From Chondrosia reniformis (lineage: Eukaryota > Porifera > Demospongiae > Chondrillida > Chondrillidae): a DNA stretch of 64,000 bases. The stretch lies in the NCBI GenBank assembly GCA_947172415.1, contig OX359193.1, forward strand, positions 1,064,501-1,128,500, read 5' to 3'. The position numbers were made by a program, and so were the translations under genes. The notes under the pieces are model-generated. The model was not told the DNA's origin. It was given only the letters and a program-made list of their open reading frames with translations, and did not search any database. This document shows, piece by piece, positions 1,624-42,793 of the stretch (within the stretch, counting starts at the first letter, position 1; each line of letters opens with the position of its first letter).

Positions 1624-3337
1624 TCAACTGCTCTCATTTTCAGTAGCTTTCTTCAAATCATATTGTTCAAACTGCTTTGTTACCTCTTCTGGTATTGTCA
1701 CTTTGCTAAGGTCCTCCATTCCCGGTTCTGGTTCGTCTGCGATGAGCATTCCTATCAGCTTTTCACAGGCCTGAGCAGTGCTGTCATCCTTCTCCCACTT
1801 GTGATACTCCCTCATCAGAAGGTATGTACCCTTCTCTCGAAGGATCTTACGACCTACTTTAGTAGCACATAGCTAAAGTAGGAGGGAAAATATCAAACAG
1901 TTTGGAAATGTGTAATGTGGTGTTGTACAAATAATAGGCATGATAAACAAAACACAACTCTTTCATCAAACACATTTTAGAGGGAACAAGAAAGAGGAGC
2001 AATATCTGGGAATTGAATCAAGGTCAGAATTTAACTGGTTTTGATCACCAGTTCTGTCACTTCACAGAATGTCACTATTACCTGCATGAGTGCCTCAACC
2101 AGCATTTTTCTAATTGAAGGGTCCTCCTCTCTGGTCTTGTCATCTGGAAGATACTGTAAGTCTAAAGGAAATTTTTCTGTGTCCTGGTCCTCAAACTCCT
2201 CTGGTCCAGCCAGGGGTAGGAGGAGGACTGGAAGCAGGTCAACCTCCTCACTCAAGAGCCAGCTGTGCCGCTCTAAGGAAGTAATGTAGATGGAATATAG
2301 TCTGGAGCAGGTATGCATAGATAAACTTTATGGACACTGGGCTCAAAGGCTTGTCATATTTGCATTGCATCACAGTTGTCTGACCCCTGGAGACAAAGTG
2401 AACTCTACCTCAAGCTACCCAAAGCTCTACATGTTGCATTGTATGTGCATAGGTCCTATATATAGGTCTAGAGATATTGTTGTTCCAATAACTTGCAACT
2501 ACAAATGGCTAAGAAATATAATTCAATAGTCTTGTCATTAAAAAGGGCCAGCAACAACAGTTAAAGCTTGGATTTAGGTAGTGCAGACTTAAACTTAAGT
2601 GACATCTTAGGATTTGATGTATGGTTTGCTAGCTATAGGAAGTCCTATATACCAGTCTCAAAACAGAGATTTCTTAACAGTCCTACAATTCCTCCTCTTC
2701 TTATCACTGAATTTTCAAAGTGAACCAAAGGCATTAGGCGCAGCAAGTGTTTGCCATCCAATAAGAGCGCTCTAGCGTCTCTCAACTGTGTTATATTGGA
2801 TAAAATGGTGGCAACGTAATGCAGTTTGGCTTTAGAATTATAGTTCACAACACAACAAATTTTTACAAGTTTAGATAACCTATTTTCGTCGCAATCAACG
2901 AGACAGGCCAAAACAGCTTTACTGCCCGCGGCGGTTCTGGTCAGGTTGGACAGAGAAGCGCAAACCTGGTCCGCAAACACAAAGTCTGGATTCACCAGAG
3001 CATCGACTAAACGTTTCACAACATCCATCTTTAAAATTGCATCAACTACTTCGTCATTGTTCGTGAGATTAACTAGAGCTAAATGTGCATTGTTCGCCAC
3101 AGCGGGGCTCTGGTCAAACAACAGTTGGACAGTACACTTCAATAGAGATGGACAGCTAACAAAGAGGCGTTGACCTCCTGGTGTCCCTGTTAGCCCAAGA
3201 ACCTGACTTATTGCCTGAATTCGAATATCCTTTCGGGTTTCTGGAGTCAAAAACTGTTCTAGCTCCTTTAAGCTATCGACTTCGGCATCTTCAAATCTGT
3301 GACCCGTAGCCGCCATTTTAATTAAGGATTGCTTCAT
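1624..3337 (-). CDS. HGH1: HGH1 homolog (eEF2-specific folding cochaperone)
   Basis: Minus-strand exons 2653-3337, 2082-2272 and 1624-1872 join in phase (1,125 nt, 374 aa; human HGH1 is about 390 aa). Armadillo-like helical repeats are visible (LALVNLTNNDEVVDAIL, SLSNLTRTAAG, LSNITQLRDA). Family hallmarks follow: RRGGIVGLLRNLCFE, then HSWLLSEEVDLLP, LAGPEEF, DLQYLPDDKTREED, IRKMLVEAL and GDEPE-like IADEPEPGMEDL. HGH1 assists folding of elongation factor 2 in the cytosol (known for yeast). Exon 2 is taken from the acceptor after CTTCCTTAG at 2273, because only this restores the phase and the family's C-F-E-x-R-H-x-W-L-L junction. The first ATG is at 3335-3337; the next in-frame ATG (3314-3316) has a better context and overlaps an AAAATGGCGGC motif, so it may be the true start. 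RFC2 ends only 57 bp upstream. Confidence 0.93.
3309..3319 (-). promoter_or_regulatory. YY1-like AAAATGGCGGC motif over the HGH1 start region
   Basis: On the minus strand the sequence AAAATGGCGGC overlaps the second ATG of HGH1. It matches the animal YY1 consensus (AAnATGGCGGC), which often lies at the transcription or translation start of housekeeping genes. Similar sites lie at RFC2, UBE3B and XRCC3. Binding is inferred. Confidence 0.45.
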
Positions 3338-8168: not shown

Positions 8169-11100
8169 ATGGATGTAAAAATAGTAACGGTGATCGCCTT
8201 AACATTCATCGGTGAGATCTAAGTTATCTTTAACTGTGTACAGAATGCTGAGTTATTTATAATCATAGGATTCACTGTTGAGCTCTATTACTTTAGTAAT
8301 TTTTTTTCCCAGTTAATGTTCCTACATTAGTGGCACAATGTCACCTTGAATACTCACTTGCTGGTGGTGACTATACAGCTGATATATGGGTGAGGGGAGA
8401 TGTGATTTCCTTTGAGATCTCAGCACTTACCAGCGGTTGGGTTGGCATTGGATTCTCCCTGACTAGGAACATGGTAAGACCCCACTGTTTGTGAGAGAAG
8501 TTTGTATTAAGAAAAGGTACATGAATAACAGTCTTTAAGTTGAGCTTCCTTCTTGTGGCCCATCTAGCCAAATTCAGATGTTGTGATTGGTGGAATATCG
8601 GGAGAGGACTTTGTGACTGATGCGTAAGTGATGAGATGAAAAAGTGTGAAAACTTGTTAATTTGAACACTCTTTTGCAGATATGCATCTAGTCGCAGCCG
8701 TCCCCCTAGTGACAGTCAACAAGATGTGTTCAATTATGAGGTTTCCATGGAGGATGGTAGAACAGTAGTGAGATTTGACAGAATGAGAGTTACTGGAGAC
8801 AGTAATGATGTTGCACTAGATCAATCCACATACATACTCTTTGCTTACGGTGGCTCTATTATCAGCACGAATCCAATAAATATTGGCATTCATTCAAGGC
8901 GAGGATTCTTTAGCCCAGATATGATAACTCTTCCTGGTGCAGATGTATGTCCCTATGGTAAGCATTCCTTACAAGTTTACACAATTTCTAGAGCGATGAA
9001 TAATTAGACTTTTGAGTTAATGGTTATAGGTGTTTTGATTGGCGTAGAGGTGTATTCAGTTGGTCACAATTTGCTTTCTGTATTCAGTGTCTTCCTCAGC
9101 TGTAATGCAATCATTCTCCTCATCAGCATCACCAAGTGCATCATCCATCTTTCTTTCATCCCCTGCCGAGGTGTTAACCTCTTCTGAGATAGTAGCAACA
9201 CCTTCTCCCAGTCCATTTGGTGAGTCAGTGTGTGTACATGTGTCATTGTATGCAGGAAATGGAATTTGAAGTCCCCCTCATATTAAAATGTCAATGTGCC
9301 TATATGATGATTGAATGACTGCTGCTTGATCCTATTCAGTTCCTTGTCACCTTGAGTACTCACTTGCTGGTGGTGACTATACGGCTGATATATGGGTGAG
9401 GGGAGATGTGATTTCCTTTGAGATCTCAGCACTTACCAGCGGTTGGGTTGGCATTGGATTCTCCCTGACTAGGAGCATGGTAAGACCCCACTGTTTGTAA
9501 GAGAAGTTTGTAAGAAAAGGTACATCAATAGCAGTCTTTAAGTTGAGCTTCCTTCTTGTGGCCCATCTAGCCAAATTCAGATGTTGTGATTGGTGGAATA
9601 TCGGGAGAGGACTTTGTGACTGATGCGTAAGTGATGAGATGAACAAGTGTGAATGCTTGTTAATTTGAACACTCTTTTGCAGATATGCATCTAGTCGCAG
9701 CCGTCCCCCTAGTGACAGTCAACAAGATGTGTTCAATTATGAGGTTTCCATGGAGGATGGTAGAACAGTAGTGAGATTTGACAGAATGAGAGTTACTGGA
9801 GACAGTAATGATGTTGCACTAGATCAATCCATATATATTCTCTTTGCTTACGGTGGCACCATATTCAGTACGAATCCAATAAATATTGGCATTCATTCAA
9901 GGCGAGGATTCTTTAGCCCAGATATGATAACTCTTCCTGGTGCAGATGTATGTCCCTATGGTAAGCATTCCTTACAAGTTTACACAATTTCTAGAGCGAT
10001 GAATAATTAGACTATACAGTTAATGGTTATAGGTGTTTTGATTGGTCGTAGAGGTGTATTCAGTTGGTCACAATTTGCTTTCTGTATTCAGTGTCTTCCT
10101 CAGCTGTAATGCAATCATTCTCCTCATCAGCATCACCAAGTGCATCATCCATCTTTCTTTCATCCCCTGCCGAGGTGTTAACCTCTTCTGAGATAGTTGC
10201 AACACCTTCTCCCAGTCCATTTGGTGAGTCAGTGTGTGTACATGTGTCATTGTATGCAGGAAATGGAATTTGAAGTCCCCCTCATATTAAAATGTCAATG
10301 TGCCTATATGATGATTGAATGACTGCTGCTTGATCCTATTCAGTTCCTTGTCACCTTGAGTACTCACTTGCTGGTGGTGACTATACGGCTGATATATGGG
10401 TGAGGGGAGATGTGATTTCCTTTGAGATCTCAGCACTTACCAGCGGTTGGGTTGGCATTGGATTCTCCCTGACTAGGAGCATGGTAAGACCCCACTGTTT
10501 GTAAGAGAAGTTTGTAAGAAAAGGTACATGAATAGCAGTCTTTAAGTTGAGCTTCCTTCTTGTGGCCCATCTAGCCAAATTCAGATGTTGTGATTGGTGG
10601 AATATCGGGAGAGGACTTTGTGACTGATGCGTAAGTGATGAGATGAAAAAGTGTGAAAGCTTGTTAATATGAACACTCTTTTGCAGATATGCATCTAGTC
10701 GCAGCCGGCCCCCTAGTGACAGTCAACAAGATGTGTTCAATTATGAGGTTTCCATGGAGGATGGTAGAACAGTAGTGAGATTTGACAGAATGAGAGTTAC
10801 TGGAGACAGTAATGATGTTGCACTAGATCAATCCATATATATTCTCTTTGCTTACGGTGGCACCATATTCAGTACGAATCCAATAAATATTGGCATTCAT
10901 TCAAGGCGAGGATTCTTTAGCCCAGATATGATAACTCTTCCTGGTACAGATGTATGTCCGTATGGTAAGCATTCCTTACAAGTTTACACAATTTCTAGAG
11001 CGATGAATAATTAGACTTTACAGTTAATGGTTATACGTACGTGTTTTGATTGGTCGTAGAGGTGTATTCAGTTGGTCACCATTTGCTTTCTGTATTCAGT

Positions 11101-14100
11101 GTCTTCTTCAGCTGTAATGCAATCATTCTCCTCATCAGCATCACCAAGTGCATCATCCATCTTTCTTTCATCCCCTGCCGAGGTGTTAACCTCTTCTGAG
11201 ATAGTAGCAACACCTTCTCCCAGTCCATTTGGTGAGTCAGTGTGTGTACATGTGTCATTGTATGCAGGAAATGGAATTTGAAGTCCCCCTCATATTAAAA
11301 TGTCAATGTGCCTATATGATGATTGAATGACTGCTGCTTGATCCTATTCAGTTCCTTGTCACCTTGAGTACTCACTTGCTGGTGGTGACTATACGGCTGA
11401 TATATGGGTGAGGGGAGATGTGATTTCCTTTGAGATCTCAGCACTTACCAGCGGTTGGGTTGGCATTGGATTCTCCCTGACTAGGAGCATGGTAAGACCC
11501 CACTGTTTGTAAGAGAAGTTTGTAAGAAAAGGTACATGAATAGCAGTCTTTAAGTTGAGCTTCCTTCTTGTGGCCCATCTAGCCAAATTCAGATGTTGTG
11601 ATTGGTGGAATATCGGGAGAGGACTTTGTGACTGATGCGTAAGTGATGAGATGAAAAAGTGTGAAAGCTTGTTAATATGAACACTCTTTTGCAGATATGC
11701 ATCTAGTCGCAGCCGGCCCCCTAGTGACAGTCAACAAGATGTGTTCAATTATGAGGTTTCCATGGAGGATGGTAGAACAGTAGTGAGATTTGACAGAATG
11801 AGAGTTACTGGAGACAGTAATGATGTTGCACTAGATCAATCCATATATATTCTCTTTGCTTATGGTGGCACCATATCCAGTACGAATCCAATAAATATTG
11901 GCATTCATTCAAGGCGAGGATTCTTTAGCCCAGATATGATAACTCTTCCTGGTGCAGATGTATGTCCCTATGGTAAGCATTCCTTACAAGTTTACACAAT
12001 TTCTAGAGCGATGCATAACTAGACTTTACAGTTAATGGTTATAGGTGTTTTGATTGGTCGTAGAGCTGTATTCAGTTGGTCACCATTTACTTTCTGTATT
12101 CAGTGTCTTCCTCAGCTGTAATGCAATCATTCTCCTCATCAGCATCACCAAGTGCATCATCCATCTTTCTTTCATCCCCTGCCGAGGTGTTAACCTCTTC
12201 TGAGATAGTAGCAACACCTTCTCCCAGTCCATTTGGTGAGTCAGTGTGTGTACATGTGTCATTGTATGCAGGAAATGGAATTTGAAGTCCCCCTCATATT
12301 AAAATGTCAATGTGCCTATATGATGATTGAATGACTGCTGCTTGATCCTATTCAGTTCCTTGTCACCTTGAGTACTCACTTGCTGGTGGTGACTATACGG
12401 CTGATATATGGGTGAGGGGAGATGTGATTTCCTTTGAGATCTCAGCACTTACCAGCGGTTGGGTTGGTATTGGATTCTCCCTGACTAGGAGCATGGTAAG
12501 ACCCCACTGTTTGTAAGAGAAGTTTGTAAGAAAAGGTACATGAATAGCAGTCTTTAAGTTGAGCTTCCTTCTTGTGGCCCATCTAGCCAAATTCAGATGT
12601 TGTGATTGGTGGAATATCGGGAGAGGACTTTGTGACTGATGCGTAAGTGATGAGATGAAAAAGTGTGAAAGCTTGTTAATATGAACACTCTTTTGCAGAT
12701 ATGCATCTAGTCGCAGCCGGCCCCCTAGTGACAGTCAACAAGATGTGTTCAATTATGAGGTTTCCATGGAGGATGGTAGAACAGTAGTGAGATTTGACAG
12801 AATGAGAGTTACTGGAGACAGTAATGATGTTGCACTAGATCAATCCATATATATTCTCTTTGCTTACGGTGGCACCATATTCAGTACGAATCCAATAAAT
12901 ATTGGCATTCATTCAAGGCGAGGATTCTTTAGCCCAGATATGATAACTCTTCCTGGTACAGATGTATGTCCGTATGGTAAGCATTCCTTACAAGTTTACA
13001 CAATTTCTAGAGCGATGAATAATTAGACTTTACAGTTAATGGTTATACGTACGTGTTTTGATTGGTCGTAGAGGTGTATTCAGTTGGTCACCATTTGCTT
13101 TCTGTATTCAGTGTCTTCTTCAGCTGTAATGCAATCATTCTCCTCATCAGCATCACCAAGTGCATCATCCATCTTTCTTTCATCCCCTGCCGAGATGTTA
13201 ACCTCTTCTGAGATAGTTGCAACACCTTCTCCCAGTCCATTTGGTGAGTCAGTGTGTGTACATGTGTCATTGTATGCAGGAAATGGAATTTGAAGTCCCC
13301 CTCATATTAAAATGTCAATGTGCCTATATGATGATTGAATGACTGCTGCTTGATCCTATTCAGTTCCTTGTCACCTTGAGTACTCACTTGCTGGTGGTGA
13401 CTATACGGCTGATATATGGGTGAGGGGAGATGTGATTTCCTTTGAGATCTCAGCACTTACCAGCGGTTGGGTTGGCATTGGATTCTCCCTGACTAGGAGC
13501 ATGGTAAGACCCCACTGTTTGTAAGAGAAGTTTGTAAGAAAAGGTACATGAATAGCAGTCTTTAAGTTGAGCTTCCTTCTTGTGGCCCATCTAGCCAAAT
13601 TCAGATGTTGTGATTGGTGGAATATCGGGAGAGGACTTTGTGACTGATGCGTAAGTGATGAGATGAAAAAGTGTGAAAGCTTGTTAATATGAACACTCTT
13701 TTGCAGATATGCATCTAGTCGCAGCCGGCCCCCTAGTGACAGTCAACAAGATGTGTTCAATTATGAGGTTTCCATGGAGGATGGTAGAACAGTAGTGAGA
13801 TTTGACAGAATGAGAGTTACTGGAGACAGTAATGATGTTGCACTAGATCAATCCATATATATTCTCTTTGCTTACGGTGGCACCATATTCAGTACGAATC
13901 CAATAAATATTGGCATTCATTCAAGGCGAGGATTCTTTAGCCCAGATATGATAACTCTTCCTGGTACAGATGTATGTCCCTATGGTAAGCATTCCTTACA
14001 AGTTTACACAATTTCTAGAGCGATGAATAATTAGACTTTACAGTTAATGGTTATAGGTGTTTTGGTTGGTCGTAGAGGTGTATTCAGTTGATCACAATTT

Positions 14101-17100
14101 GCTTTCTGTATTCAGTGTCTTCCTCAGCTGTAATGCAATCATTCTCCTCATCAGCATCACCAAGTGCATCATCCATCTTTCTTTCATCCCCTGCCGAGGT
14201 GTTAACCTCTTCTGAGATAGTTGCAACACCTTCTCCCAGTCCATTTGGTGAGTCAGTGTGTGTACATGTGTCATTGTATGCAGGAAATGGAATTTGAAGT
14301 CCCCCTCATATTAAAATGTCAATGTGCCTATATGATGATTGAATGACTGCTGCTTGATCCTATTCAGTTCCTTGTCACCTTGAGTACTCACTTGCTAGTG
14401 GTGACTATACGGCTGATATATGGGTGAGGGGAGATGTGATTTCCTTTGAGATCTCAGCACTTACCAGCGGTTGGGTTGGCATTGGATTCTCCCTGACTAG
14501 GAGCATGGTAAGACCCCACTGTTTGTAAGAGAAGTTTGTAAGAAAAGGTACATGAATAGCAGTCTTTAAGTTGAGCTTCCTTCTTGTGGCCCATCTAGCC
14601 AAATTCAGATGTTGTGATTGGTGGAATATCGGGAGAGGACTTTGTGACTGATGCGTAAGTGATGAGATGAAAAAGTGTGAAAGCTTGTTAATATGAACAC
14701 TCTTTTGCAGATATGCATCTAGTCGCAGCCGGCCCCCTAGTGACAGTCAACAAGATGTGTTCAATTATGAGGTTTCCATGGAGGATGGTAGAACAGTAGT
14801 GAGATTTGACAGAATGAGAGTTACTGGAGACAGTAATGATGTTGCACTAGATCAATCCATATATATTCTCTTTGCTTACGGTGGCACCATATTCAGTACG
14901 AATCCAATAAATATTGGCATTCATTCAAGGCGAGGATTCTTTAGCCCAGATATGATAACTCTTCCTGGTACAGATGTATGTCCCTATGGTAAGCATTCCT
15001 TACAAGTTTACACAATTTCTAGAGCGATGAATAATTAGACTTTACAGTTAATGGTTATACGTACGTGTTTTGATTGGTCGTAGAGGTGTATTCAGTTGGT
15101 CACCATTTGCTTTCTGTATTCAGTGTCTTCTTCAGCTGTAATGCAATCATTCTCCTCATCAGCATCACCAAGTGCATCATCCATCTTTCTTTCATCCCCT
15201 GCCGAGATGTTAACCTCTTCTGAGATAGTTGCAACACCTTCTCCCAGTCCATTTGGTGAGTCAGTGTGTGTACATGTGTCATTGTATGCAGGAAATGGAA
15301 TTTGAAGTCCCCCTCATATTAAAATGTCAATGTGCCTATATGATGATTGAATGACTGCTGCTTGATCCTATTCAGTTCCTTGTCACCTTGAGTACTCACT
15401 TGCTGGTGGTGACTATACGGCTGATATATGGGTGAGGGGAGATGTGATTTCCTTTGAGATCTCAGCACTTACCAGCGGTTGGGTTGGCATTGGATTCTCC
15501 CTGACTAGGAGCATGGTAAGACCCCACTGTTTGTAAGAGAAGTTTGTAAGAAAAGGTACATGAATAGCAGTCTTTAAGTTGAGCTTCCTTCTTGTGGCCC
15601 ATCTAGCCAAATTCAGATGTTGTGATTGGTGGAATATCGGGAGAGGACTTTGTGACTGATGCGTAAGTGATGAGATGAAAAAGTGTGAAAGCTTGTTAAT
15701 ATGAACACTCTTTTGCAGATATGCATCTAGTCGCAGCCGGCCCCCTAGTGACAGTCAACAAGATGTGTTCAATTATGAGGTTTCCATGGAGGATGGTAGA
15801 ACAGTAGTGAGATTTGACAGAATGAGAGTTACTGGAGACAGTAATGATGTTGCACTAGATCAATCCATATATATTCTCTTTGCTTACGGTGGCACCATAT
15901 TCAGTACGAATCCAATAAATATTGGCATTCATTCAAGGCGAGGATTCTTTAGCCCAGATATGATAACTCTTCCTGGTGCAGATGTATGTCCCTATGGTAA
16001 GCATTCCTTACAAGTTTACACAATTTCTAGAGCGATGAATAATTAGACTTTACAGTTAATGGTTATACGTGTTTTGGTTGGTCGTAGAGCTGTATTCAGT
16101 TGGTCACCATTTACTTTCTGTATTCAGTGTCTTCCTCAGCTGTAATGCAATCATTCTCCTCATCAGCATCACCAAGTGCATCATCCATCTTTCTTTCATC
16201 CCCTGCCGAGGTGTTAACCTCTTCTGAGATAGTAGCAACACCTTCTCCCAGTCCATTTGGTGAGTCAGTGTGTGTACATGTGTCATTGTATGCAGGAAAT
16301 GGAATTTGAAGTCCCCCTCATATTAAAATGTCAATGTGCCTATATGATGATTGAATGACTGCTGCTTGATCCTATTCAGTTCCTTGTCACCTTGAGTACT
16401 CACTTGCTGGTGGTGACTATACGGCTGATATATGGGTGAGGGGAGATGTGATTTCCTTTGAGATCTCAGCACTTACCAGCGGTTGGGTTGGTATTGGATT
16501 CTCCCTGACTAGGAGCATGGTAAGACCCCACTGTTTGTAAGAGAAGTTTGTAAGAAAAGGTACATGAATAGCAGTCTTTAAGTTGAGCTTCCTTCTTGTG
16601 GCCCATCTAGCCAAATTCAGATGTTGTGATTGGTGGAATATCGGGAGAGGACTTTGTGACTGATGCGTAAGTGATGAGATGAAAAAGTGTGAAAGCTTGT
16701 TAATATGAACACTCTTTTGCAGATATGCATCTAGTCGCAGCCGGCCCCCTAGTGACAGTCAACAAGATGTGTTCAATTATGAGGTTTCCATGGAGGATGG
16801 TAGAACAGTAGTGAGATTTGACAGAATGAGAGTTACTGGAGACAGTAATGATGTTGCACTAGATCAATCCATATATATTCTCTTTGCTTACGGTGGCACC
16901 ATATTCAGTACGAATCCAATAAATATTGGCATTCATTCAAGGCGAGGATTCTTTAGCCCAGATATGATAACTCTTCCTGGTACAGATGTATGTCCGTATG
17001 GTAAGCATTCCTTACAAGTTTACACAATTTCTAGAGCGATGAATAATTAGACTTTACAGTTAATGGTTATACGTACGTGTTTTGATTGGTCGTAGAGGTG

Positions 17101-20100
17101 TATTCAGTTGGTCACCATTTGCTTTCTGTATTCAGTGTCTTCTTCAGCTGTAATGCAATCATTCTCCTCATCAGCATCACCAAGTGCATCATCCATCTTT
17201 CTTTCATCCCCTGCCGAGATGTTAACCTCTTCTGAGATAGTTGCAACACCTTCTCCCAGTCCATTTGGTGAGTCAGTGTGTGTACATGTGTCATTGTATG
17301 CAGGAAATGGAATTTGAAGTCCCCCTCATATTAAAATGTCAATGTGCCTATATGATGATTGAATGACTGCTGCTTGATCCTATTCAGTTCCTTGTCACCT
17401 TGAGTACTCACTTGCTGGTGGTGACTATACGGCTGATATATGGGTGAGGGGAGATGTGATTTCCTTTGAGATCTCAGCACTTACCAGCGGTTGGGTTGGC
17501 ATTGGATTCTCCCTGACTAGGAGCATGGTAAGACCCCACTGTTTGTAAGAGAAGTTTGTAAGAAAAGGTACATGAATAGCAGTCTTTAAGTTGAGCTTCC
17601 TTCTTGTGGCCCATCTAGCCAAATTCAGATGTTGTGATTGGTGGAATATCGGGAGAGGACTTTGTGACTGATGCGTAAGTGATGAGATGAAAAAGTGTGA
17701 AAGCTTGTTAATATGAACACTCTTTTGCAGATATGCATCTAGTCGCAGCCGGCCCCCTAGTGACAGTCAACAAGATGTGTTCAATTATGAGGTTTCCATG
17801 GAGGATGGTAGAACAGTAGTGAGATTTGACAGAATGAGAGTTACTGGAGACAGTAATGATGTTGCACTAGATCAATCCATATATATTCTCTTTGCTTACG
17901 GTGGCACCATATTCAGTACGAATCCAATAAATATTGGCATTCATTCAAGGCGAGGATTCTTTAGCCCAGATATGATAACTCTTCCTGGTACAGATGTATG
18001 TCCCTATGGTAAGCATTCCTTACAAGTTTACACAATTTCTAGAGCGATGAATAATTAGACTTTACAGTTAATGGTTATAGGTGTTTTGGTTGGTCGTAGA
18101 GGTGTATTCAGTTGATCACAATTTGCTTTCTGTATTCAGTGTCTTCTTCAGCTGTAATGCAATCATTCTCCTCATCAGCATCACCAAGTGCATCATCCAT
18201 CTTTCTTTCATCCCCTGCCGAGATGTTAACCTCTTCTGAGATAGTTGCAACACCTTCTCCCAGTCCATTTGGTGAGTCAGTGTGTGTACATGTGTCATTG
18301 TATGCAGGAAATGGAATTTGAAGTCCCCCTCATATTAAAATGTCAATGTGCCTATATGATGATTGAATGACTGCTGCTTGATCCTATTCAGTTCCTTGTC
18401 ACCTTGAGTACTCACTTGCTGGTGGTGACTATACGGCTGATATATGGGTGAGGGGAGATGTGATTTCCTTTGAGATCTCAGCACTTACCAGCGGTTGGGT
18501 TGGCATTGGATTCTCCCTGACTAGGAGCATGGTAAGACCCCACTGTTTGTAAGAGAAGTTTGTAAGAAAAGGTACATGAATAGCAGTCTTTAAGTTGAGC
18601 TTCCTTCTTGTGGCCCATCTAGCCAAATTCAGATGTTGTGATTGGTGGAATATCGGGAGAGGACTTTGTGACTGATGCGTAAGTGATGAGATGAAAAAGT
18701 GTGAAAGCTTGTTAATATGAACACTCTTTTGCAGATATGCATCTAGTCGCAGCCGGCCCCCTAGTGACAGTCAACAAGATGTGTTCAATTATGAGGTTTC
18801 CATGGAGGATGGTAGAACAGTAGTGAGATTTGACAGAATGAGAGTCACTGGAGACAGTAATGATGTTGCACTAGATCAATCCACATACATACTCTTTGCT
18901 TACGGTGGCTCTATTATCAGTCCGAATCCAATAAATATTGGCATTCATTCAAGGCGAGGATTCTTTAGCCCAGATATGATAACTCTTCCTGGTGCAGATG
19001 TATGTCCCTATGGTAAGCATTCCTTACAAGTTTACACAATTTCTAGAGCGATGCATAACTAGACTTTTGAGTTAATGGTTATAGGTGTTTTGATTGGTCG
19101 TAGAGCTGTATTCAGTTGGTCACAATTTGCTTTCTGTATTCAGTGTCTTCCTCAGCTGTAATGCAATCATTCTCCTCATCAGCATCACCAAGTGCATCAT
19201 CCATCTTTCTTTCATCCCCTGCCGAGATGTTAACCTCTTCTGAGATAGTTGCAACACCTTCTCCCAGTCCATTTGGTGAGTCAGTGTGTGTACATGTGTC
19301 ATTGTATGCAGGAAATGGAATTTGAAGTCCACCTCATATTAAAATGTCAATGTGCCTATATGATGATTGAATGACTGCTGCTTGATCCTATTCAGTTCCT
19401 TGTCACCTTGAGTACTCACTTGCTGGTGGTGACTATACGGCTGATATATGGGTGAGGGGAGATGTGATTTCCTTTGAGATCTCAGCACTTACCAGCGGTT
19501 GGGTTGGCATTGGATTCTCCCTGACTAGGAACATGGTAAGACCCCACTGTTTGTAAGAGAAGTTTGTAAGAAAAGGTACATGAATAGCAGTCTTTAAGTT
19601 GAGCTTCCTTCTTGTGGCCCATCTAGCCAAATTCAGATGTTGTGATTGGTGGAATATCGGGAGAGGACTTTGTGACTGATGCGTAAGTGATGAGATGAAA
19701 AAGTGTGAAAACTTGTTAATATGAGCACTCTTTTGCAGATATGCATCTAGTCGCAGCCGCCCCCCTAGTGACAGTCAACAAGATGTGTTCAATTATGAGG
19801 TTTCCATGGAGGATGGTAGAACAGTAGTGAGATTTGACAGAATGAGAGTTACTGGAGACAGTAATGATGTTGCACTAGATCAATCCATATATATTCTCTT
19901 TGCTTACGGTGGCACCATATTCAGTACGAATCCAATAAATATTGGCATTCATTCAAGGCGAGGATTCTTTAGCCCAGATATGATAACTCTTCCTGGTACA
20001 GATGTATGTCCCTATGGTAAGCATTCCTTACAAGTTTACACAATTTCTAGAGCGATGAATAATTAGACTTTACAGTTAATGGTTATAGGTGTTTTGGTTG

Positions 20101-23100
20101 GTCGTAGAGGTGTATTCAGTTGGTCACAATTTGCTTTCTGTATTCAGTGTCTTCCTCAGCTGTAATGCAATCATTCTCCTCATCAGCATCACCAAGTGCA
20201 TCATCCATCTTTCTTTCATCCCCTGCCGAGATGTTAACCTCTTCTGAGATAGTTGCAACACCTTCTCCCAGTCCATTTGGTGAGTCAGTGTGTGTACATG
20301 TGTCATTGTATGCAGGAAATGGAATTTGAAGTCCCCCTCATATTAAAATGTCAATGTGCCTATATGATGATTGAATGACTGCTGCTTGATCCTATTCAGT
20401 TCCTTGTCACCTTGAGTACTCACTTGCTGGTGGTGACTATACGGCTGATATATGGGTGAGGGGAGATGTGATTTCCTTTGAGATCTCAGCACTTACCAGC
20501 GGTTGGGTTGGCATTGGATTCTCCCTGACTAGGAGCATGGTAAGACCCCACTGTTTGTAAGAGAAGTTTGTAAGAAAAGGTACATGAATAGCAGTCTTTA
20601 AGTTGAGCTTCCTTCTTGTGGCCCATCTAGCCAAATTCAGATGTTGTGATTGGTGGAATATCGGGAGAGGACTTTGTGACTGATGCGTAAGTGATGAGAT
20701 GAAAAAGTATGAATGCTTGTTAATTTGAACACTCTTTTGCAGATATGCATCAAGTCGCAGCCGCCCCCCTAGTGACAGTCAACAAGATGTGTTCAATTAT
20801 GAGGTTTCCATGGAGAATGGTAGAACAGTAGTGAGATTTGACAGAATGAGAGTTACTGGAGACAGTAATGATGTTGCACTAGATCAATCCACATACATTC
20901 TCTTTGCTTATGGTGGCTCTATTAGCAGCACAAATCCAGTAAACATTGGCATTCATTCAAGGCGAGGATTCTTTAGCCCAGATATGATAACTCTTCCTAG
21001 TGCAGATGTATGTCCTAACTTAAAACAGAGTACCTCATTAGTGGTTCCATCGCCTACAATGCCAACATCTACACCTACTACATTATGTAAGTTGCATTAT
21101 AAAGCAATATATACGTACATAACAGCAATTAATTAAATATCTATTTACATTTTGTCACACGAGGATGGAATTAAATGCACTTGGCCTGTGCAAAGACTAT
21201 GATGATAAGCAAATAATCACTGGAATGTATCACACATATACAGTATGTATATGTAACATTTGTATCTTGCTATATGCCAATGGTATAAACTGTTTACATT
21301 ACAATTTTTAGGTTACAATAAATAGCCATAAAATGCTAATATTCACGTATATATTTCAGTTATATGAAAGTCTAAAAATACGTACAATTTTTTTTAATTT
21401 AGTTTGTCCTGAAGATGTTACAGATATAGGAGGCGTTGGAGAATACAGTTGGGGCGAGACAGCTGCAGGTTCAATAGCTGAGCTCTCCTGCATCTGTGTT
21501 CCTGGTTCTTTTGCTACCAGGCTTTGTGGAATAGAAGGAACGTGGGAATCCCCCAATGTACAAGACTGTCAAGTATCCAATCAAATATTCTCTTTATGTA
21601 TGACAGTAAGTCTGACTACATATATACTAATACCAGCATAAAGCATGCTGTTTGTGATGGACTGTAGAAGTCATGATCACTATATGTTAAAATTTATGAA
21701 TGAAAATATTTGTTTTTTTGAGGGACAAAAAAGATATATGGTTCTAGTCTGTACATTATGAAATAATTATGATAATTGTTGTATTTATTTATTGTTTATT
21801 ATTGGGGATATTGTTATGTTCATAATTGAGCATCAGTAAAACTTGTACAACTCAAAACAGAAAAGATCAGATGTGTTTCAACCAACATGTCTTCCTCAGC
21901 AATGTCTCATCAATCTGCATATCGTAATTCAGCAATGAGTGACCTGCTGTTTGAAATGTCCGAATTCTTTTGGATTTTATAAGTGTTGCTGATGCTCATA
22001 TACATATACATATATATGTACCTCCTATAGTACAATATATATATACGTATTATCTATACATCACATGATACCTGCATTTATATCTTTATAGAATTCTACT
22101 AATAACATGGTGGAAGCTTTGATAGGCTTGACTCGAGGTAACACCAACTTGATGACCAGAGATATTCCGCTTCTCACGTCTGTTGTTGACAGCCTTGCTA
22201 CACGTGAACAGCTAAATAATGACTCAGTAAGAGATGATAGTGTTCTTGTACTTATAGTAGAGTTTGGAAGGCATATATACTATGATAAGCATTATCTCTA
22301 TGTACGTACATACACAGAGGCTGTATTGTAGAGATAGGCTATATACGTATATATGCACATATTTTCAATTATTTGACTTTAAAGGAAGTTTATCTCATGT
22401 CTATCAGGGTTTTCTTTTGGAGAGGGGCAGGAGGGAATTCACCTCTCCCTTCTGAAGTATACTTGAAAATTGTCCATTTTAATATTGAACTTGGTAGCCT
22501 CTTTATATTTTATATTTTTACTATAGTTTATATCCCCCCCCCTGTAGTATTTTCTTTAAAAAAACTGTTACTACAGAGAATATCTACAGTTCTAGAGAGA
22601 TTATTATCAATAAAAACATTAATCATTTAAATAACATGAAAAATTATATAATACATATATCTCTTTCAATAAATTACAGATTAGAAATGTAACACTGTCA
22701 GTCCTTGATGTCATTTTACAAGTGATCACTGAAGAGGCAGCAGGTCAACTTAATGGCCAACAACAACAGAGGTATGCATGTATTTTAACTTTATTGCTTC
22801 CATGAATTTATTGTGTACGAGTATTCATATATATTTTCGGCATTATCATTATTGTACATGTACGTATGTACGTATATGTTAGATTAACTAATAAATGTAC
22901 ATATATATACATGCTGTTAAGCAAGAAGATTAAAGTACTACTTTTATAGTAACTATTAAGAAAGTGTTTGAACCACTAGGCCTAGCAGAATGTTCAATCT
23001 CTAACATGTAACATGGCCAAAAAGGACAATGATTTTAAGATATAAAGGTGTAGGTACAGTACATGATTAATATAGCCTCAATTCATAAGCAATGCAACTC

Positions 23101-24930
23101 CTAGTATAGCTTTATATGCAGTACAACATATGTACAATTAACTGCTCATTGAGTGTGTTATTGATTAGATTTTTTCCCAGGACACAAATCTCACTGCCTC
23201 TAAGAGTTATTCAAAAAATACTCAATAATATAATACTGATTCAGTTCAATTCATTAAGCATTTTTAGGAGACCTTTAGATTTGCAGTGGGACCCAGATAG
23301 AGAACTGAAATAAGAGGGATTGGATGAGGAGTGATTGCAGAATTTACGTATATATATAGATGATAAAAAGAATAAATATATTACAACTTAAATAACCCAT
23401 CAGGGTTCTATCTAGGATGCAAATTTTGGGGGGGAAGAAGCACAAGAGCTAGGGGGGTCTGGGGGCATGCCCCCCAGGATTTTATGCCCTCTGAGATTGA
23501 TTCTGACATGAGAACTTTCTTTTAAATTGCAATTGGGTTAATTTTTTTTTGGGGGGGAGGGAAGCTGGAGTGTTTGGGGGAGAAGTGTCCCCCCAGTAGA
23601 TTGAACCCTGCCCATGTATGTTATCATTGTATACATTTGAATGTTTAACGTAGTGTTTTGGACTTGCTTGAGAATTTGTCAGTTAATATTCCTGTTGAAA
23701 ATGAAGATGAAGTGATAGTCGGTAGTAACTATGTCATCGCAGCTTCTGTCAGAACTGTAAACCAGACAAGGATCAGTGGTCTTTTGGTGGAAGTTGTAGA
23801 AATTAACAGTTCAGTTGCTTTTCCACCTGATTTTTTTAATGGTTTTACAAATGAATTTGTACGTATATCCGTATCCTCTACATTCAATTCATTCATTGGG
23901 GACAGACAGATTGCCACGGGATTAGTAATTGTAAACGTAGGCAGGGAAATTGAAAATTTACCAATCAGTGGCAGAATAAGGCTAAACCTTGCTTTACAAG
24001 TAAGAAATGCATTAATATATACTGGTAGGCCAAGCTTATATAGAACAGAAGGAGTATATATGTATATATATGAAAGAGAGAGGGAGACAGAGAAGAATTC
24101 AATATATATTATATATCTTCACTAATAGGATGTACAGGGTGAAAATGAGGAAGCTGTTTGTGTATTTTGGGACCCATTTCAGGAAGGTAAAGATTCTATG
24201 TTATTATACTCATTACTGTGTTTAACATCATTGTTTTGTATTGTAGTATCATATACTTACTTTTAAAATCTTTTACTAGTTTTTTCTGGTAGAGGATGTG
24301 AATTAATTGGTACTTCTGATGGACAATTGGTTTGTGAGTGTGATCATTTGACAGCATTTGCAGCTTTATTTGTGAGTGATAAGTCTTGTACATACGTACG
24401 TATATCCACATCAAGCTGTAATACCTATATGTGTGTATATGTGTGTACATTAAGCATGTACTCATACAGTACTGTAATACCTATATGTGTGTATATATAT
24501 CATTAGCTCTCTATCTTAAAAATCACATTAGTATTCATGTATCCAAATTTAGGAGTCTTCAAATTCAGTTCCAACTTTCTCACCACTGGCCATTGCTTTA
24601 ATAGTTGTAGGAGTTTCTATCTTTATCATTTTGTTTGCAGTGGCAATTTCATTCCTTGGAATCAGGTATAAATTTGCACATATACTCATATATATATAAT
24701 AATAAGTACATATACTAAGAATACATCAAATGTGATACTAATATGCCATACATTGTGTAATAGATGTAGCATGCAGAAAGCAGTTTTCCAACAGTATAAT
24801 AATGTATATTATACCTGGGATATATAGAGTACATATATGCCACCATGTGTATATATATGTTACTTTCTGTAGTGCTTATAATACCAAAAAGGCTAATAAA
24901 AAGGCGGACATCAAAATGCAGGATATTTGA
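8169..24930 (+). CDS. Giant 13xDOMON - HRM-like - GAIN/GPS - single-TM surface protein
   Basis: Exon 8169-8211 gives a signal peptide (MDVKIVTVIALTFI..., continuing into the next exon to VAQ). Thirteen units follow; each DOMON is split over three exons (about 140, 56 and 278 nt) and followed by a 132-nt Ser/Pro linker exon, for example 9340-9479 and, for unit 1, 8313-8473, 8568-8623, 8680-8957, 9088-9219. DOMON signatures are GWVGIGFS...M, DVVIGG and MEDGRTVVRF. After unit 13 (last exon 20743-21086) come an HRM-like exon 21403-21572 (CPED...YSWGET...LSC...RLCGIEGTWE...DC), GAIN exons 22092-22226, 22680-22771 and 23654-23999, GPS exons 24129-24186 and 24280-24371 (CVFWD, then VCECDHLTAF), one TM exon 24553-24665 and a 20-residue tail 24873-24930. 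The sum is 8,940 nt, 2,979 aa, exactly in phase. AATAAA at 24952 follows the stop. There is no 7TM bundle. Likely an extracellular, autoproteolysed adhesion or redox receptor; function unknown. Confidence 0.88.
8313..21010 (+). repeat. Tandem array of 13 DOMON gene units (1,004/1,008 bp)
   Basis: First DOMON exons start at 8313, 9340, 10344, 11352, 12356, 13364, 14368, 15376, 16380, 17388, 18392, 19396 and 20400. Periods alternate 1,004 and 1,008 bp through the middle because every second unit carries a 4-bp ACGT insertion in the intron after the third DOMON exon. Exons and introns are both nearly identical. Units 4-6 share private variants with units 8-10 (shift 4,024 bp). Edge units 1, 11 and 13 are the most divergent (STYILFAYGGSI instead of SIYILFAYGGTI). 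Reverse-strand frames repeated in each unit are shadows. Confidence 0.97.
21838..21990. mobile_element. Degenerate foldback-element remnant
   Basis: Within a DOMON-gene intron, GAGCATCAGTAAAACTTGTA at the left and TAAGTGTTGCTGATGCTCAT at the right form imperfect inverted ends. Inside is TGTTTCAACCAACATGTCTTCCTCAGCA, which resembles the GTTTCGACC/TCTTCATCAGC core of the foldback family. Low-copy decay makes the limits approximate. Confidence 0.45.
23401..23610. mobile_element. G-rich MITE-like element with CAGGGTTC termini
   Basis: Begins CAGGGTTCTATC and ends GATTGAACCCTG, so 11 of 12 terminal bases are inverted repeats. The interior is poly-G rich (GGGGGGGAAG, GGGGGCATGCCCCCC). No open frame. 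It lies in the intron between two GAIN exons of the DOMON gene. A similar G/C-run sequence occurs at 39550-39715. Confidence 0.6.
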
Positions 24931-24951: not shown

Positions 24952-24957
24952 AATAAA
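24952..24957 (+). terminator. Poly(A) signal AATAAA of the DOMON gene
   Basis: AATAAA 22 bp after the TGA stop at 24928-24930. It supports the short-tail C-terminus and makes downstream 7TM exons unlikely, since UBE3B begins at 25334. Confidence 0.6.
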
Positions 24958-25333: not shown

Positions 25334-28300
25334 ATGTTTACCGCTAAGAAGGAGACGCCACAGTATATAGATGACCTGAGACGCGCACGTGATACAAGAA
25401 CGAACGAGAAGACTGAGAAGAAGGCAGCTATCATCATACAAGTCAGTCTAGAGCGTTAGGCCTAGGTCAACCGTACTGGTGATACACAGTAACACTTTAT
25501 CATTTAAATTTACCGTTCTTTAGAGAGCACTACAGCAGTTTTATCACCGTAATGCTGTCATCAAGTCACTCAGGTACGTACTCACTCGTACTGTACTGGC
25601 ATACCATTTTATATATATAATTATCCACGTTTCTACTATGAATCTAACTGTGATCCTATAGGGATGACATAGACATCTGTTTGAAAGCAGAACCGCCGAA
25701 TGGTAAAGTTCTTTTTCTGTGTATGCTCTAGACTTTCTACAATAATATATAATCATAAGTACATTATCTGTTGATGTGTGTGTACGTGTAGGCTTGGAAT
25801 TGTTTCATTCAACCAGAAAGCTTCTTTTTATTGATAAGAAGGGGAAAGACATCAAGGTATTAACACGATCTTTTGCTGAACTGTAACCCATTTCCAACAG
25901 ACATTATTCCATTAGAGGTTTGATGCTGTCTGTGGTGTCATATTGAGGAGTATGGCCGAGGAGAATGTAAAAGTAAGAATTGTTTTGTCTTACTATAGTA
26001 AGGTGATTAAATATAGCATATGTTTGTGTTAGAAAGATTAGAGGAAGGGACAGAGAGGCAAGGGTAGAGAGGAAGCTTAAGGGATAGAGAGGAAGGGGGA
26101 GAGAGGTAGGGATAGAGAGGAAGTGGTACAGAGGAAGGGGTAGAGAGGAAGGGGGAGAGAGGTAGGGATAAAGAGGAAGGGGGAGAGAGGAAGGGGTAGA
26201 GAGGAAGGGGTAGAGAGGAAGGGGTAGAGAGGAAGGGGTAGAGAGGAAGGGGTAGAGAGGTAGGGGTAGAGAGGCAGGGGTAGAGAGGTAGGGGTACAGA
26301 GGAAGGGGTAGAGAGGAAGGGGTACAGAGGAAGGGGTACAGAGGAAAGGGTACAGAGGAAGGGGTACAGAGGAAGGGGTACAGAGGAAAGGGTACAGAGG
26401 AAGGGGTAGAGAGGTAGGGGTACAGAGGTAGGGATAGAGAGGAAAGGGTACAGAGGAAAGGGTACAGAGGAAAGGGTACAGAGGAAGGGGTAGAGAGGTA
26501 GGGGTAGAGAGGCAGGGGTAGAGAGGAAAGGGTACAGAGGAAGGGGTACAGAGGAAGGGGTACAGAGGAAGGGGTACAGAGGTAGGGGTACAGAGGAAGG
26601 GGTAGAGAGGAAAGGGTAGAGAGGAAGGGGTAGAGAGGAAGGGGTAGAGAGGAAAGGGGTAGAGAGGAAGGGGTAGAGAGGCAAGGGTAGAGAGGGACAA
26701 TGAAAGATGTAAAGCAAAAATATTTCAACTAAAAACCTAGCTACGTATGTATATGTTCAAATATACATATTAAGTAGCTATGCGATACCACTTTTAGTTG
26801 AAGTACTTAATTTTTTAGGGGCTGCCGCAGGCAGCCCCTTATATTGTTTTCATTTGCCGATTACGTTGTATGGCTTCATGTTACGGAAAGATATATATAT
26901 ATATATATATCTATATATATAATACGGGTTGATACGCAACTATTATAACACTTTATTTATACGTCGCTATATAATTAATACAGGTTCATATATACGCAAC
27001 TATTATAATACTTTATAATACTTAATTTATACATCAATACATCGTTTTGCAAATGGCGGCGTTCAGGAAGCTTTAGTTAACGAAGCTTTTCTGTCGCTAT
27101 TTATAGTGTTCAGGACACTTAAGCGTCCTCAATCGTTAGTATTACGAATATATATATTAAATGCCAACGATACGGCCAAGTAGTTCGAGTTGATTCGGGG
27201 GGCGGCAGCCCCACGAGTTTTTAAACTCGAACTACTTGTTTTGACAAGGTCTGAAATAAAAAGTGCATAAGTCTTAGCTAGTAGGTAGTTCAGTAGGTAG
27301 TTCAGTAGGTAGTTCAGTAGGTAGTTCAGTAGGTAGTTCAGTAGGTAGTTCAGTAGGTAGTTCAGTAGGTAGTTCAATAGATCTGCTAATAGACCGTGCC
27401 TATATACAAAGTACATCTCTTATGGAAGCAGTAGTCCCCTCAGGAGGTGGAGCTAGTGTTACACTGTCTACATAGCTCCATTTCCACAAGTTTTCAGTCC
27501 TTGATATCTCATACTTCAATTTCCAAATCTTCTCTCTGTTCTCATGTAGAGTTGGTATGTGTCTGTTGCAATGAACAAGGTTTTTGCTGTACAGTGGATC
27601 CAGCAAATAAAGTGTGTCTTGCAGCTTGTGTGTGAACATCTGAAGGACATCAAGGTACAGTACTGATTAAAATAACCTCATTGTCCTAAACGCATACATT
27701 CTTAGTACATGTACGTGTACTTATTATTATATATAAATATAAATAATTTCGATGAGTATTTGTGCAAATTTATACCTGATTCTAAGGAATGAAATTGCCA
27801 CTGCAAGCAATATGTACATTATATATATAAGATAGAAACTCCTACAACTATTGTACATACATATATTTAAGGGATGTAATGTGTTACAGGTTCTTCTAGA
27901 AAATGTCACAGGGGGGGGGGGATGTTGGGGTGGCAACACAGTTCAATATGGTAATTTGATTTTCTTTAAGGGGGGAGGTGTAATTGAGAAAGTATGTATG
28001 TACATATGTACAGTATATACATAATGTTTGTCCATTTAACTTGTTTGTAGCCTGATACAGCTAAAGGTAGAAGTAGAGTCGAGGTTTATCTTGAAATGGT
28101 CAGTTAAATGCATTACCTGAATACCTATACAACTATGTTATTACACTATTTTATATATATTTATATTACTTACATTATAATAAGATCTTAAGTTTTGTAC
28201 CAAACAGTTAATTTTACTAAATATATGTGCAAAAAAGAATCAGTGATTTTCATAATAATAGAGCATGTATTTGTGTAGATTACAATTTTCACTGATTACA

Positions 28301-34300: not shown

Positions 34301-37300
34301 GAGTTTCTGGAAGATATTGTCAAAGAGGCATTTAACCCGGATCTTAACCTCTTTAAGGTACGTACACTGGTGTCACATTCATTTTTCTAGCTATTTAATG
34401 ATATGTAAGGACATTGCAGTGTAGAGAATGCTAGTACTGAATTAATGCATTAAAATGGAAACCCATTTTTTTAATTTACTTGAAACTTTTTCATAAGTTG
34501 CATGTATTGTATTTCTTTATGTATGTATGTACATATTTACAATCCAGCTACAGTCTAGATACACAGTATATTTGTATGTGCTCAGATCACCACTCACATG
34601 TACATATATATAGCAGTTAAGCATTCCACGCATACTGTGTGCGTGTGTCTATGTGAGATTAGTATTATTCGACTACTCTGTTACTCTACTGCTCTTTTTC
34701 CTTTGAGTGAGTGTGTATCTCATTGTTCAGATAAGCAGTGAGGGTAGACTGTACCCATCTCCAACAAGTCATATCAATCCACACCATCTTTCTTACTTTG
34801 AATTTCTCGGAAAGCTTTTAGGAAAAGCAGTGTATGAGGTAAACATCTCTCGGATTATACTGCATATTTAACGCTTGTGTGCATTTGATGGCACGTGTTT
34901 CTTCTGAGTGGAACTTATCTTTGAAAGGGTTCATCTTTCAATCTCTTTTGACTGCAGATATCCAAAGAATTTGTAAAATTTACACCTCAAAGAGATCAGT
35001 GGATTCCATATGAGCATCAGCGACAGTATTTTTATACAAGGTATTGAATGTTTCGACCACAAAGGATGAAGTGGGAATGATACAGCCATGTAGGGGAAGT
35101 GTGATGGGGATTGCTGATGAAGACCTTTGTGGTCAAAACGTTCAATAACTTGTATACAAATACTGTCGCTGATGTTCATATGGAATCCACTGATCTTACA
35201 ATGAACGCAACAAATAAGCCATCTCAAAGAGAGTTTTTGGCAGTGCAATTAAGAGACTTATTCTATTATATTATGTAGTATGTACGAATATGTATAGTAC
35301 GTATATGTACGTATGTACGTATATACGTACGTATATGTACAGTATATGTATATGTATGTATGCCAACTTGCTTTATAGGGTATAGTGGTTGATGTTCCTT
35401 TTGCAAGATTCTTTCTTGTTCAAGTGCTGGGTCATCACCATCATACACTCTACAGTCCTTACGATGAGCTACCTTCCTTAGATCCACAACTCTTCAAGTC
35501 CCTTCAAGACGTTAAGGTGCTTGTCAAAATAGATTAGTAACATTACTGGAGAGAAAGTTTAGAAGGGACTCTTTCTTGTGGGACTGCATGTTGTGTGGTG
35601 TGTAGCAGTTTTGGTTTTATGTAATAGTTATAGTTGGAGAGTATAAGAAAGGTATAAATGTGTCGTTGAATCCTTCTGAATGATTAACTTTACTGACTTC
35701 TTTAGTAAATTGTTACCAATTTGTGATATAAGCTTATCGGGTAATAGATTTCAGAAGGTATGAAATCATTTAGCATTAAATGTAGCTTTTGATTATGATT
35801 ACTGATGAAGCACATCTCTTTGCATGTGGCTATGTAGAATTATGAAGGTGACGTTGCAGACCTGATGTTGACCTTCTCATGGGAAGAAGAATTCTTAGGG
35901 AAGGTACGTACATATAATCATGTGCAAACTGTTGTTTGTTATGCACTACAGCTGTTGTAACATGATGTTGCAGTGTTGCATCTTACAGTCGATTTCATTG
36001 CTTAAGTGTTTATATATATTGTTATTCTAAATATTGAAATGTTAATATAACTATACCATCATCTGACCCTCCTAATAGCTCATAATGCATGAGTTGAAAG
36101 AAGCAGGTTCTTTGACTCCTGTTACAAATGAAAACAGGTTAGTTACATCATCCATTTCATCTTTATGGCCCAAAAGATTACTTTACTTTAGATTTTATGT
36201 ATCTTATGTATATCTACCTCTGTATATCTGTATCTGTATATATCTGTATACCTGTATATCTGTATACCTGTATACCTGTATATCTGTATCTGTATATCTC
36301 TATTTAAATGTGTGAGTATTACCCCTAAATTATTTAATGAATATAAGTACAGTGTTGTAAGGGACATTTATTTCTTGCTTAGAATCGGTTACATTCACAG
36401 ATTGGCTCATTTCCGCATGTACACTCAGATCAAGGATCAGAGGTTGTCTTTTGTCCGAGGCTTCCGGTCAGTCATTCCTCAGGAGTGGCTCCTCTGTTTC
36501 TCTGCCCCAGAGCTCCAGAGGCTCATATCCGGAGACAATGTGGAGATGGATGTCGACGATCTAAGGTCTGTTAATGCATTCACATTGTTGTAGTGTTATG
36601 ATGTTGAAGTGTTCTGTATACATTATAAAACAGTAAACTGTAGTGTAAAGAGTTACAGACACCTGTTTTGGCATCCATTTTTAATTGAACTTTAATTCAG
36701 TTTTCCAGCCTCTGATCACTTGGCTGGGGCAGCATAATGTCTCTCAATGATTATCCATATCATTGTCAATGTATGTATGTATGGATGTATGAAGCATGTC
36801 ATTAATCTCACATGATAACCTTTTATTTGATGTACCTCAGAAGGAACACAGAATACTATGGCGGGTACCACAGCTCCCATCGTGTGATTGGCTGGCTATG
36901 GGATGTGCTGAGGAGAGACTTTTCAAAAGAAGAAAAATCTGCTTTTTTGAAAGTGAGTATAAAAGAAATCTTTAATTGTAAATCTAATTCTTGTAGTTCA
37001 GCAGTGGCTGTGGTCTGATTTGGGCTCATTGATGTAATAGTATTACACTCTGAGTGTATTCTTATCCAGTTGGTTGGTCACATCCTTCAGACAGTGAATT
37101 GATTGTGTATTGTTGTTAAATCAGCTCAATGGATAGGCTAGGCCTAGGGTAGAATTACACTACTATGTAGCTAAATACAACAGCTTTGGTTTAAACTTGC
37201 TACACATACCAGTTTATCATTATGGGAACTGCCTGATTTGTTTCATGTGATGTGATAATAATCAAATACAACACATTAAATTTAAGAGCATCTATTCCTT

Positions 37301-42545: not shown

Positions 42546-42607
42546 ATTGTCGCCTCTTCTACACCAAAGTTTACATTCCGTTTCATTTATCCGAAATTTA
42601 CTGTCTT

Positions 42608-42793
42608 CTACAGTTGCTGATAAGCGTTGCTCGGTGAGGGTTGCCCATAAGGTGCAACCATAGAATGTCTCCTAATAGCCACTGGCGTAATTGCAGCGTT
42701 CTCCATCCACACGATGTAACACCATGTGAGTAGGTATAGACCAAGTCCAGAGTAAAAGCTGAAAAAGGGCAATTTGCGCTTCCAAGTCCACAT
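42608..42793 (-). CDS. Type II membrane anchor likely belonging to the GT92 gene
   Basis: Starts MWTWKRKL, followed by a hydrophobic stretch (FFSFYSGLGLYLLTWCYIVW) and a short stem, then stops at TAG 42608. A basic start followed by one helix is the usual Golgi glycosyltransferase layout. The catalytic frame begins overlapping its end (about 42608-42685) one frame away. No intron of reasonable length repairs the join, so a frameshift is the simplest reading. Confidence 0.55.
   Translation of the reverse strand: MWTWKRKLPFFSFYSGLGLYLLTWCYIVWMENAAITPVAIRRHSMVAPYGQPSPSNAYQQL

Follow-up and report, generated by a model that had tools for sequence, protein, structure and literature searches.

The 64,000-nt stretch of the Chondrosia reniformis genome analysed here (contig OX359193.1, positions 1,064,501 to 1,128,500, forward strand; G000:C5:1064501-1128500 in our numbering; hereafter the window, in which positions are counted) contains a predicted gene that joins 13 DOMON domains to a GAIN/GPS module and a single transmembrane (TM) helix. 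An exon-by-exon rebuild on the plus strand, with its start codon at 8169 (ATG) and its stop codon at 24928–24930 (TGA), yields 60 exons and 2,979 amino acids (aa) with no internal stop, GT-AG at every junction and consistent phases throughout. This bears out a sequence-only reading of the same DNA, which had claimed these coordinates and exons, one reading phase and this length. The predicted chain comprises a signal peptide, 13 DOMON units, an HRM-like exon, GAIN, a canonical GPS, one helix and a short tail; the signal peptide and a single helix near the C-terminus (residues 2928–2965) are the sole peaks of its hydropathy profile. The architecture of 13 DOMON domains, GAIN/GPS and a single helix is confirmed as a sequence-level observation.

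Exon 1 (8169–8211) carries the ATG and the start of the signal peptide (hydrophobic residues 2–26). DOMON unit 1, made of exons A1, B1 and C1 (8313–8957), is followed by a 132-nt, Ser/Pro-rich linker exon, D1 (9088–9219, phase 1-1), and D is repeated after units 1–12. Units 2 through 12 lie at 9340–9960, 10344–10964, 11352–11972, 12356–12976, 13364–13984, 14368–14988, 15376–15996, 16380–17000, 17388–18008, 18392–19012 and 19396–20016; unit 13 (20400–21086) has no D exon, and its last exon continues into a Thr/Pro-rich linker. The HRM-like exon (21403–21572) precedes three GAIN exons at 22092–22226 (probably part of subdomain A), 22680–22771 and 23654–23999 (probably part of subdomain B). The GPS motif starts with CVFWD in the exon at 24129–24186 and continues in the exon at 24280–24371, which encodes GCEL...VCECDHL↓TAFAALF (the arrow marks the predicted cleavage site) and ends at a phase-0 intron. 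The single helix (24553–24665) reaches a Kyte-Doolittle maximum of 3.22. The exon at 24873–24930 encodes the short cytoplasmic tail and the stop codon, and a possible poly(A) signal, AATAAA, is located at 24952–24957.

Pfam scans used a shortened chain made up of DOMON units 1 and 13 and the C-terminal part, on which PF03351 matched at 156.3 bits (cut-off 32.7). Every DOMON unit has one cysteine close to each end. The DOMON cassette and the D exon are both bordered by phase-1 introns, an arrangement that allows entire units to be duplicated with the reading frame kept. Units 1–12 are spaced mostly by 1,004 or 1,008 bases and are 97–100% identical; their exons diverge by 1.27% and their introns by 1.44%, and this similarity argues that the amplification is recent. 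Non-synonymous differences (pN, 0.66%) are rare relative to synonymous ones (pS, 2.99%; pN/pS 0.22), a sign that selection acts on the protein; pS also exceeds intron divergence, an excess for which we have no explanation. By these measures, the array arose by tandem amplification not long ago and evolves under purifying selection. The D linkers are 54% Ser/Thr/Pro. The array has no N-glycosylation sequon; the six that the chain contains all belong to the GAIN part. A single DOMON unit found no match in the PDB. Two joined units matched eight sequences in the protein collection, all of them DOMON proteins and none with GPS among its listed Pfam domains. DOMON loci also occur elsewhere in the genome. 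At L043 (G000:C5:1206501-1209800), 0.1 Mb away on the opposite strand, DOMON exons 89% and 94% identical to those of the array lie, by eye, amid EGF repeats, and this locus is a possible donor or recipient of the unit. Another tandem DOMON array, with a spacing of ~1,050 bases, is located at G000:C13:6759369-6762781 on the minus strand; the C13 contig has no GPS match.

Haem and sugar are among the ligands named for DOMON domains (PMC10784544). Met45 and His135 are present in 13 of 13 units, in settings that, with positions matched by eye, resemble those of the haem ligands in cellobiose dehydrogenase, conserved in CYBDOM (PMC10691727, PMC10784544). The array could accordingly be a multi-haem ectodomain for electron transfer, with a haem b held by this pair in each DOMON. 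We consider this improbable. A similar Met and His occur in L011, a DOMON gene taken as monooxygenase-type, and in the bacterial-looking DOMON proteins P0002 and P0004, so the pair is not diagnostic; moreover, Pfam finds no b561 domain in the chain, and the single b561 (PF03188) locus found is on another contig, C11.

The GPS matched Pfam at 38.2 bits (cut-off 22.5). Its four cysteines, its Trp and the HL↓T motif are intact, and the sequence from that Thr onwards, TAFAALF, is close to the tethered-agonist consensus TxFAVLM (PMC12716839). HRM (PF02793) scored 18.1 bits on the shortened chain and 19.4 bits on the C-terminal part, under the cut-off of 26.2, and 'HRM-like' is therefore the proper wording. 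A three-member profile of the window protein and two same-genome relatives matched the solved structure of ADGRG6 (6v55; E 7e-14, positions 14–316 of 354) from the HRM-like part to the GPS, a match that needs the three members together; their exons had been joined by eye. With the C-terminal part alone, 18 PDB sequences appeared at E ≤ 1; the match to adhesion G protein-coupled receptors (GPCRs) was confined to the GPS and helix (ADGRF1, E 2e-5), and three of the sequences, at E 0.62–0.97, lie outside the adhesion receptors and look like chance matches. Against 7,069 candidates (proteins of ~416–1,325 aa), the C-terminal portion of the 757-aa shortened chain had no match at E ≤ 0.001; since this collection is taken to be poor in spliced animal proteins, the absence of outside homologues says little. 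PKD1-type features are absent: Pfam finds no REJ or PLAT in the shortened chain or the C-terminal part, and the helix count is one.

The array and the membrane module might instead belong to two genes, one for a secreted 13-DOMON protein and one for a separate HRM-GAIN protein with a single helix (1TM). An in-frame ATG and a partly hydrophobic stretch do precede the HRM-like exon (open reading frame 21312–21641), and GPS-1TM loci on C5, among them L036 with an HRM-like part, have no traced DOMON, the nearest upstream one being at least 11 kb away. Yet the splicing is phase-consistent throughout, unit 13 lacks a D exon and continues into the linker, and the end of the hydrophobic stretch is the T-rich tract of a splice acceptor. 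In a cluster of three one-helix genes on C7, in addition, DOMON is found 4.2–5.0 kb upstream of each GPS. Two genes thus seem an improbable arrangement.

When the intron after the helix exon is read through, a stop is reached at ~24697, and therefore spliced and unspliced readings both give one helix. The seven-helix (7TM) family 7tm_2 has no match within 5 kb downstream of the GPS, and no further hydrophobic frame is present up to 25400. The next gene seems to begin with an ATG at 25334 on the plus strand, and HECT matches lie on the same strand at 36390–37690; we take the two to be parts of one UBE3B-like gene. Between the AATAAA at 24952 and this apparent start there is scant room for 7TM exons. 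Hidden 7TM exons downstream were rejected on these grounds, as the gene seemingly ends before the next one begins. In background sequence an open frame with hydropathy of at least 2.7 starts in ~2% of 700-base stretches (126 counted, 42 of them twice), and a chance or artefactual frame was likewise rejected.

Is the single helix peculiar to this gene? Searches of the genome (117 Mb, 15 contigs) gave 92 GPS, 75 DOMON, 49 HRM and 95 7tm_2 matches, counts that are lower bounds and in which one gene may match in several exons. A 7tm_2 match follows within 5 kb on the same strand at 61 of the 92 GPS loci. The other 31 were all inspected: 28 as pieces of 2.3–2.4 kb, and the window, L033 and L036 over greater lengths, with short tail exons read by eye in L033 and L036 only. 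At 22 of them, including the window, an open frame with hydropathy of at least 2.78 lies within ~0.8 kb after the GPS. Sorting, which was partly by eye, assigned these 22 as one-helix, two as ambiguous (L046, L047) and one as lacking a helix (L066); the remaining six (L044, L045, L048, L051, L054, L055) are missed 7TM, PKD-like or unclear. Nine of the 22 (L040, L041, L050, L058, L060, L061, L062, L063, L065) have a further hydrophobic frame of at least 2.2, a feature also present in 43% of background 2-kb tiles. Mean helix hydropathy is 3.46 for one-helix loci (20 loci) versus 2.50 for TM1 of 7TM-type loci (11 loci; Mann-Whitney P 9e-6), in a comparison that omits L001, L044–L048, L054 and L064–L066 and counts L051 and L055 as 7TM-type by helix sequence despite the lack of a 7tm_2 match within 5 kb. 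L065 shows two strong helix frames after one GPS (bases 409–591 and 717–842); the second is stronger (3.69), resembles the L061 helix and is possibly an alternative anchor exon or part of a neighbouring gene.

A script placed a phase-0 intron exactly four residues past the F of HLTxF, where the Stachel-like stretch ends, in the window, L036, L041, L050 and L063, all with one helix, and in the 7TM-type loci L002, L003 and L005–L008. The script keeps the best-scoring splice pair; at the remaining loci its picks were weaker or lay farther off, and in one 7TM class the intron comes later. If the intron at this position is shared, the exons of the membrane anchor would form a set that can be exchanged.

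DOMON also occurs upstream of GPS on the same strand in both forms, namely in the one-helix C7 cluster and in two 7TM-type genes. In the cluster, FN3 lies between DOMON and GPS (L033), with one FN3 confirmed by Pfam. A one-chain test of L033 found a GT-AG solution for 10 of 12 junctions, at loose thresholds and with some poor consensus; the script found no junction from DOMON to FN3 or from GPS to TM. The L033 DOMON has two internal introns in phases 0 and 2, as in the window. The first 7TM-type gene (C7:7.987–7.999 Mb, treated as one gene by adjacency) has DOMON 9.1 kb upstream of its GPS and, by eye, the order EGF-like, DOMON, FN3, Ig, GAIN and then 7TM; joined pieces match 7tm_2 at 71.1 bits, and one EGF-like piece has no Pfam match. 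At the second (C12:2.04 Mb), DOMON lies 6.4 kb upstream of the GPS, with EGF repeats and an HRM-like part by eye and then 7TM. On C5, 0.1 Mb from the window gene and on the other strand, DOMON and GPS-1TM loci are found in one cluster, a grouping by adjacency only. The sequence-only reading had proposed an undescribed class of protein; the architecture holds, but its uniqueness does not, given 22 one-helix GPS loci and DOMON upstream of GPS in 7TM-type genes.

In the C7 7TM gene, the DOMON exons share 57% and 79% identity with those of the window. The C-terminal part of the window protein is 31% identical to that of the same gene and 24% to that of a C5 one-helix gene, in comparisons for which exon pieces were joined by eye and some may be missing. 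These identities suit descent from a DOMON-bearing 7TM receptor, although they are not proof of it. That the C7 relative has the 7TM would also fit a degenerate adhesion GPCR, a decaying gene or pseudogene left after loss of the 7TM. This reading is very improbable and was rejected: the 60 exons contain no stop or frameshift, the array retains its low pN/pS, and 22 loci share the one-helix form, their helices standing out as strong.

The window protein could instead function solely as a one-helix subunit, acting in cis with 7TM DOMON-receptors and lending its ligand-binding array to a 7TM signalling partner. The 1TM and 7TM forms of fly Cirl appear to heterodimerise via their ectodomains and to signal through G-alpha-o (PMC13197933), and the C7 gene could provide a partner of the 7TM type. 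However, the fly form shares a gene with its 7TM partner, whereas the window form has its own, and an obligate cis-subunit appears to us rather unlikely.

The explanation that we favour as probable is a GAIN-anchored surface protein with one membrane pass, related to those adhesion GPCRs that carry DOMON, which would serve as a cleaved, sheddable tether, a decoy or a 7TM partner. GAIN would cut itself at HL↓T in the endoplasmic reticulum; at the cell surface, the ectodomain of ~2,900 residues would stay bound non-covalently to the remaining stub with its one helix. The DOMON beads on their Ser/Pro-rich linkers may bind a ligand or a neighbouring cell multivalently, and pulling or dissociation would release the ectodomain. 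Because there is no 7TM core, no G protein signalling by the protein itself is expected, which leaves the roles of releasable tether or decoy, or partner of 7TM relatives. Work on ADGRE2 makes cleavage plausible: it is possible with one helix, a calnexin helix also supports it, and ADGRE2-1TM is cut and reaches the surface, which other truncations do not (PMC12488864). One helix can thus supply the tethering that helps GAIN cleavage, and the sequence predicts a two-part, sheddable surface protein. With HL↓T intact, the autoproteolysed, sheddable protein proposed by the sequence-only reading is upheld as the likeliest function.

Several observations weigh against this explanation. The gene, the protein and its cleavage are predicted here from genomic sequence. 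HRM stays under its Pfam cut-off, and scans of the shortened chain and C-terminal part give no separate GAIN match. Cleavage of ADGRE2 is ~90% with the full 7TM versus about half with 3TM or 4TM, the 1TM form not being quantifiable (PMC12488864); the full 7TM thus raises cleavage, and a one-helix GAIN may cut less well. At four of the 22 one-helix loci (L049, L056, L057, L058) Gly replaces the Thr/Ser nucleophile (HLG, HFG), so that these are probably not self-cleaving, and at two (L061, L062) HAT stands in place of HLT; not every one-helix member, therefore, need cleave. Descent of the helix from TM1 was tested with a profile of ten typed TM1-like sequences, one of which, L046, carries its 7TM type as a label only: 12 of 300 shuffles reached the score of the window helix, and of 16 helices four pass at 5% and 12 do not. 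The tail is short and basic, and no signalling motif was recognised in it, though none was searched for.

More tentatively, and with somewhat less than even confidence, we suggest that this lineage has a third large GAIN class, gene-encoded, one-helix and amounting to about a quarter of the GPS loci found here. The phase-0 intron would let anchors swap by exon shuffling, placing DOMON, EGF and FN3 ectodomains both on 7TM receptors and on cleavable tethers; the window gene would be an extreme case, with an array recently or still expanding. A sizeable one-helix class, if true, would allow a direct test of the role of GAIN cleavage without a 7TM, and it would become possible to ask which of the two forms is older and whether 1TM proteins pair with 7TM ones. 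The loci would also form a natural test of whether one-helix tethering permits cleavage (PMC12488864).

The rest of the window contains other features. A minisatellite of ~14-base GA-rich units (by eye) occupies 26020–26700, in the region of the downstream gene, and gives rise to long minus-strand open frames. An open frame of 655 aa at 53245–55212 (plus strand) contains a VWA domain and, by eye, a signal peptide and an EGF-like end; with a helix near 55.7 kb, it probably encodes another single-pass surface protein. On the minus strand are open frames for Glycosyltransferase family 92 (41727–42671) and DUF383/HEAT repeats (2645–3337).

A single-helix GPS protein, suREJ1, is known from sea urchin sperm. 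The 1TM isoform of Drosophila Cirl is reportedly produced from the 7TM gene by intron retention, whereas the window gene has no 7TM exons (no hydrophobic frame to 25400, no 7tm_2 match within 5 kb). Cirl, the fly latrophilin homologue, nonetheless provides a precedent that limits the novelty claimed earlier: its 1TM variant is an adhesion GPCR form anchored by one helix, apparently pairing with the 7TM form (PMC13197933, a 2026 review). Among the open-licence literature matches listed, no paper joins DOMON with GPS in its title or the start of its abstract, and six papers containing the words DOMON, GPS and sponge together look unrelated by title. A survey of Amphimedon GPCRs counts 40 adhesion GPCRs, of which 28 carry GPS and no fewer than eight HRM (PMC4302439); the word DOMON is absent from the excerpts of that survey and of PMC12716839, and from the first 300,000 characters of PMC13197933. 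CYBDOM, the dopamine beta-hydroxylase family and Knickkopf have the DOMON fold in common with the window chain, in which Pfam finds no b561 or copper-monooxygenase domain. PKD1 and PKD1-like proteins, described as the sole GAIN family known besides adhesion GPCRs (PMC11697300), share the GAIN/GPS cleavage module; unlike them, the window chain has no PKD1-type extra domain by Pfam and one helix rather than eleven. The C7:7.987–7.999 Mb gene differs in having a 7TM and in its other ectodomain modules. Adhesion GPCRs (class B2, with ADGRG6 and ADGRF1) share the HRM-like/GAIN/GPS order, the four GPS cysteines, HL↓T and a Stachel-like sequence, whereas the window gene has one helix in place of seven and a DOMON array as its ectodomain.

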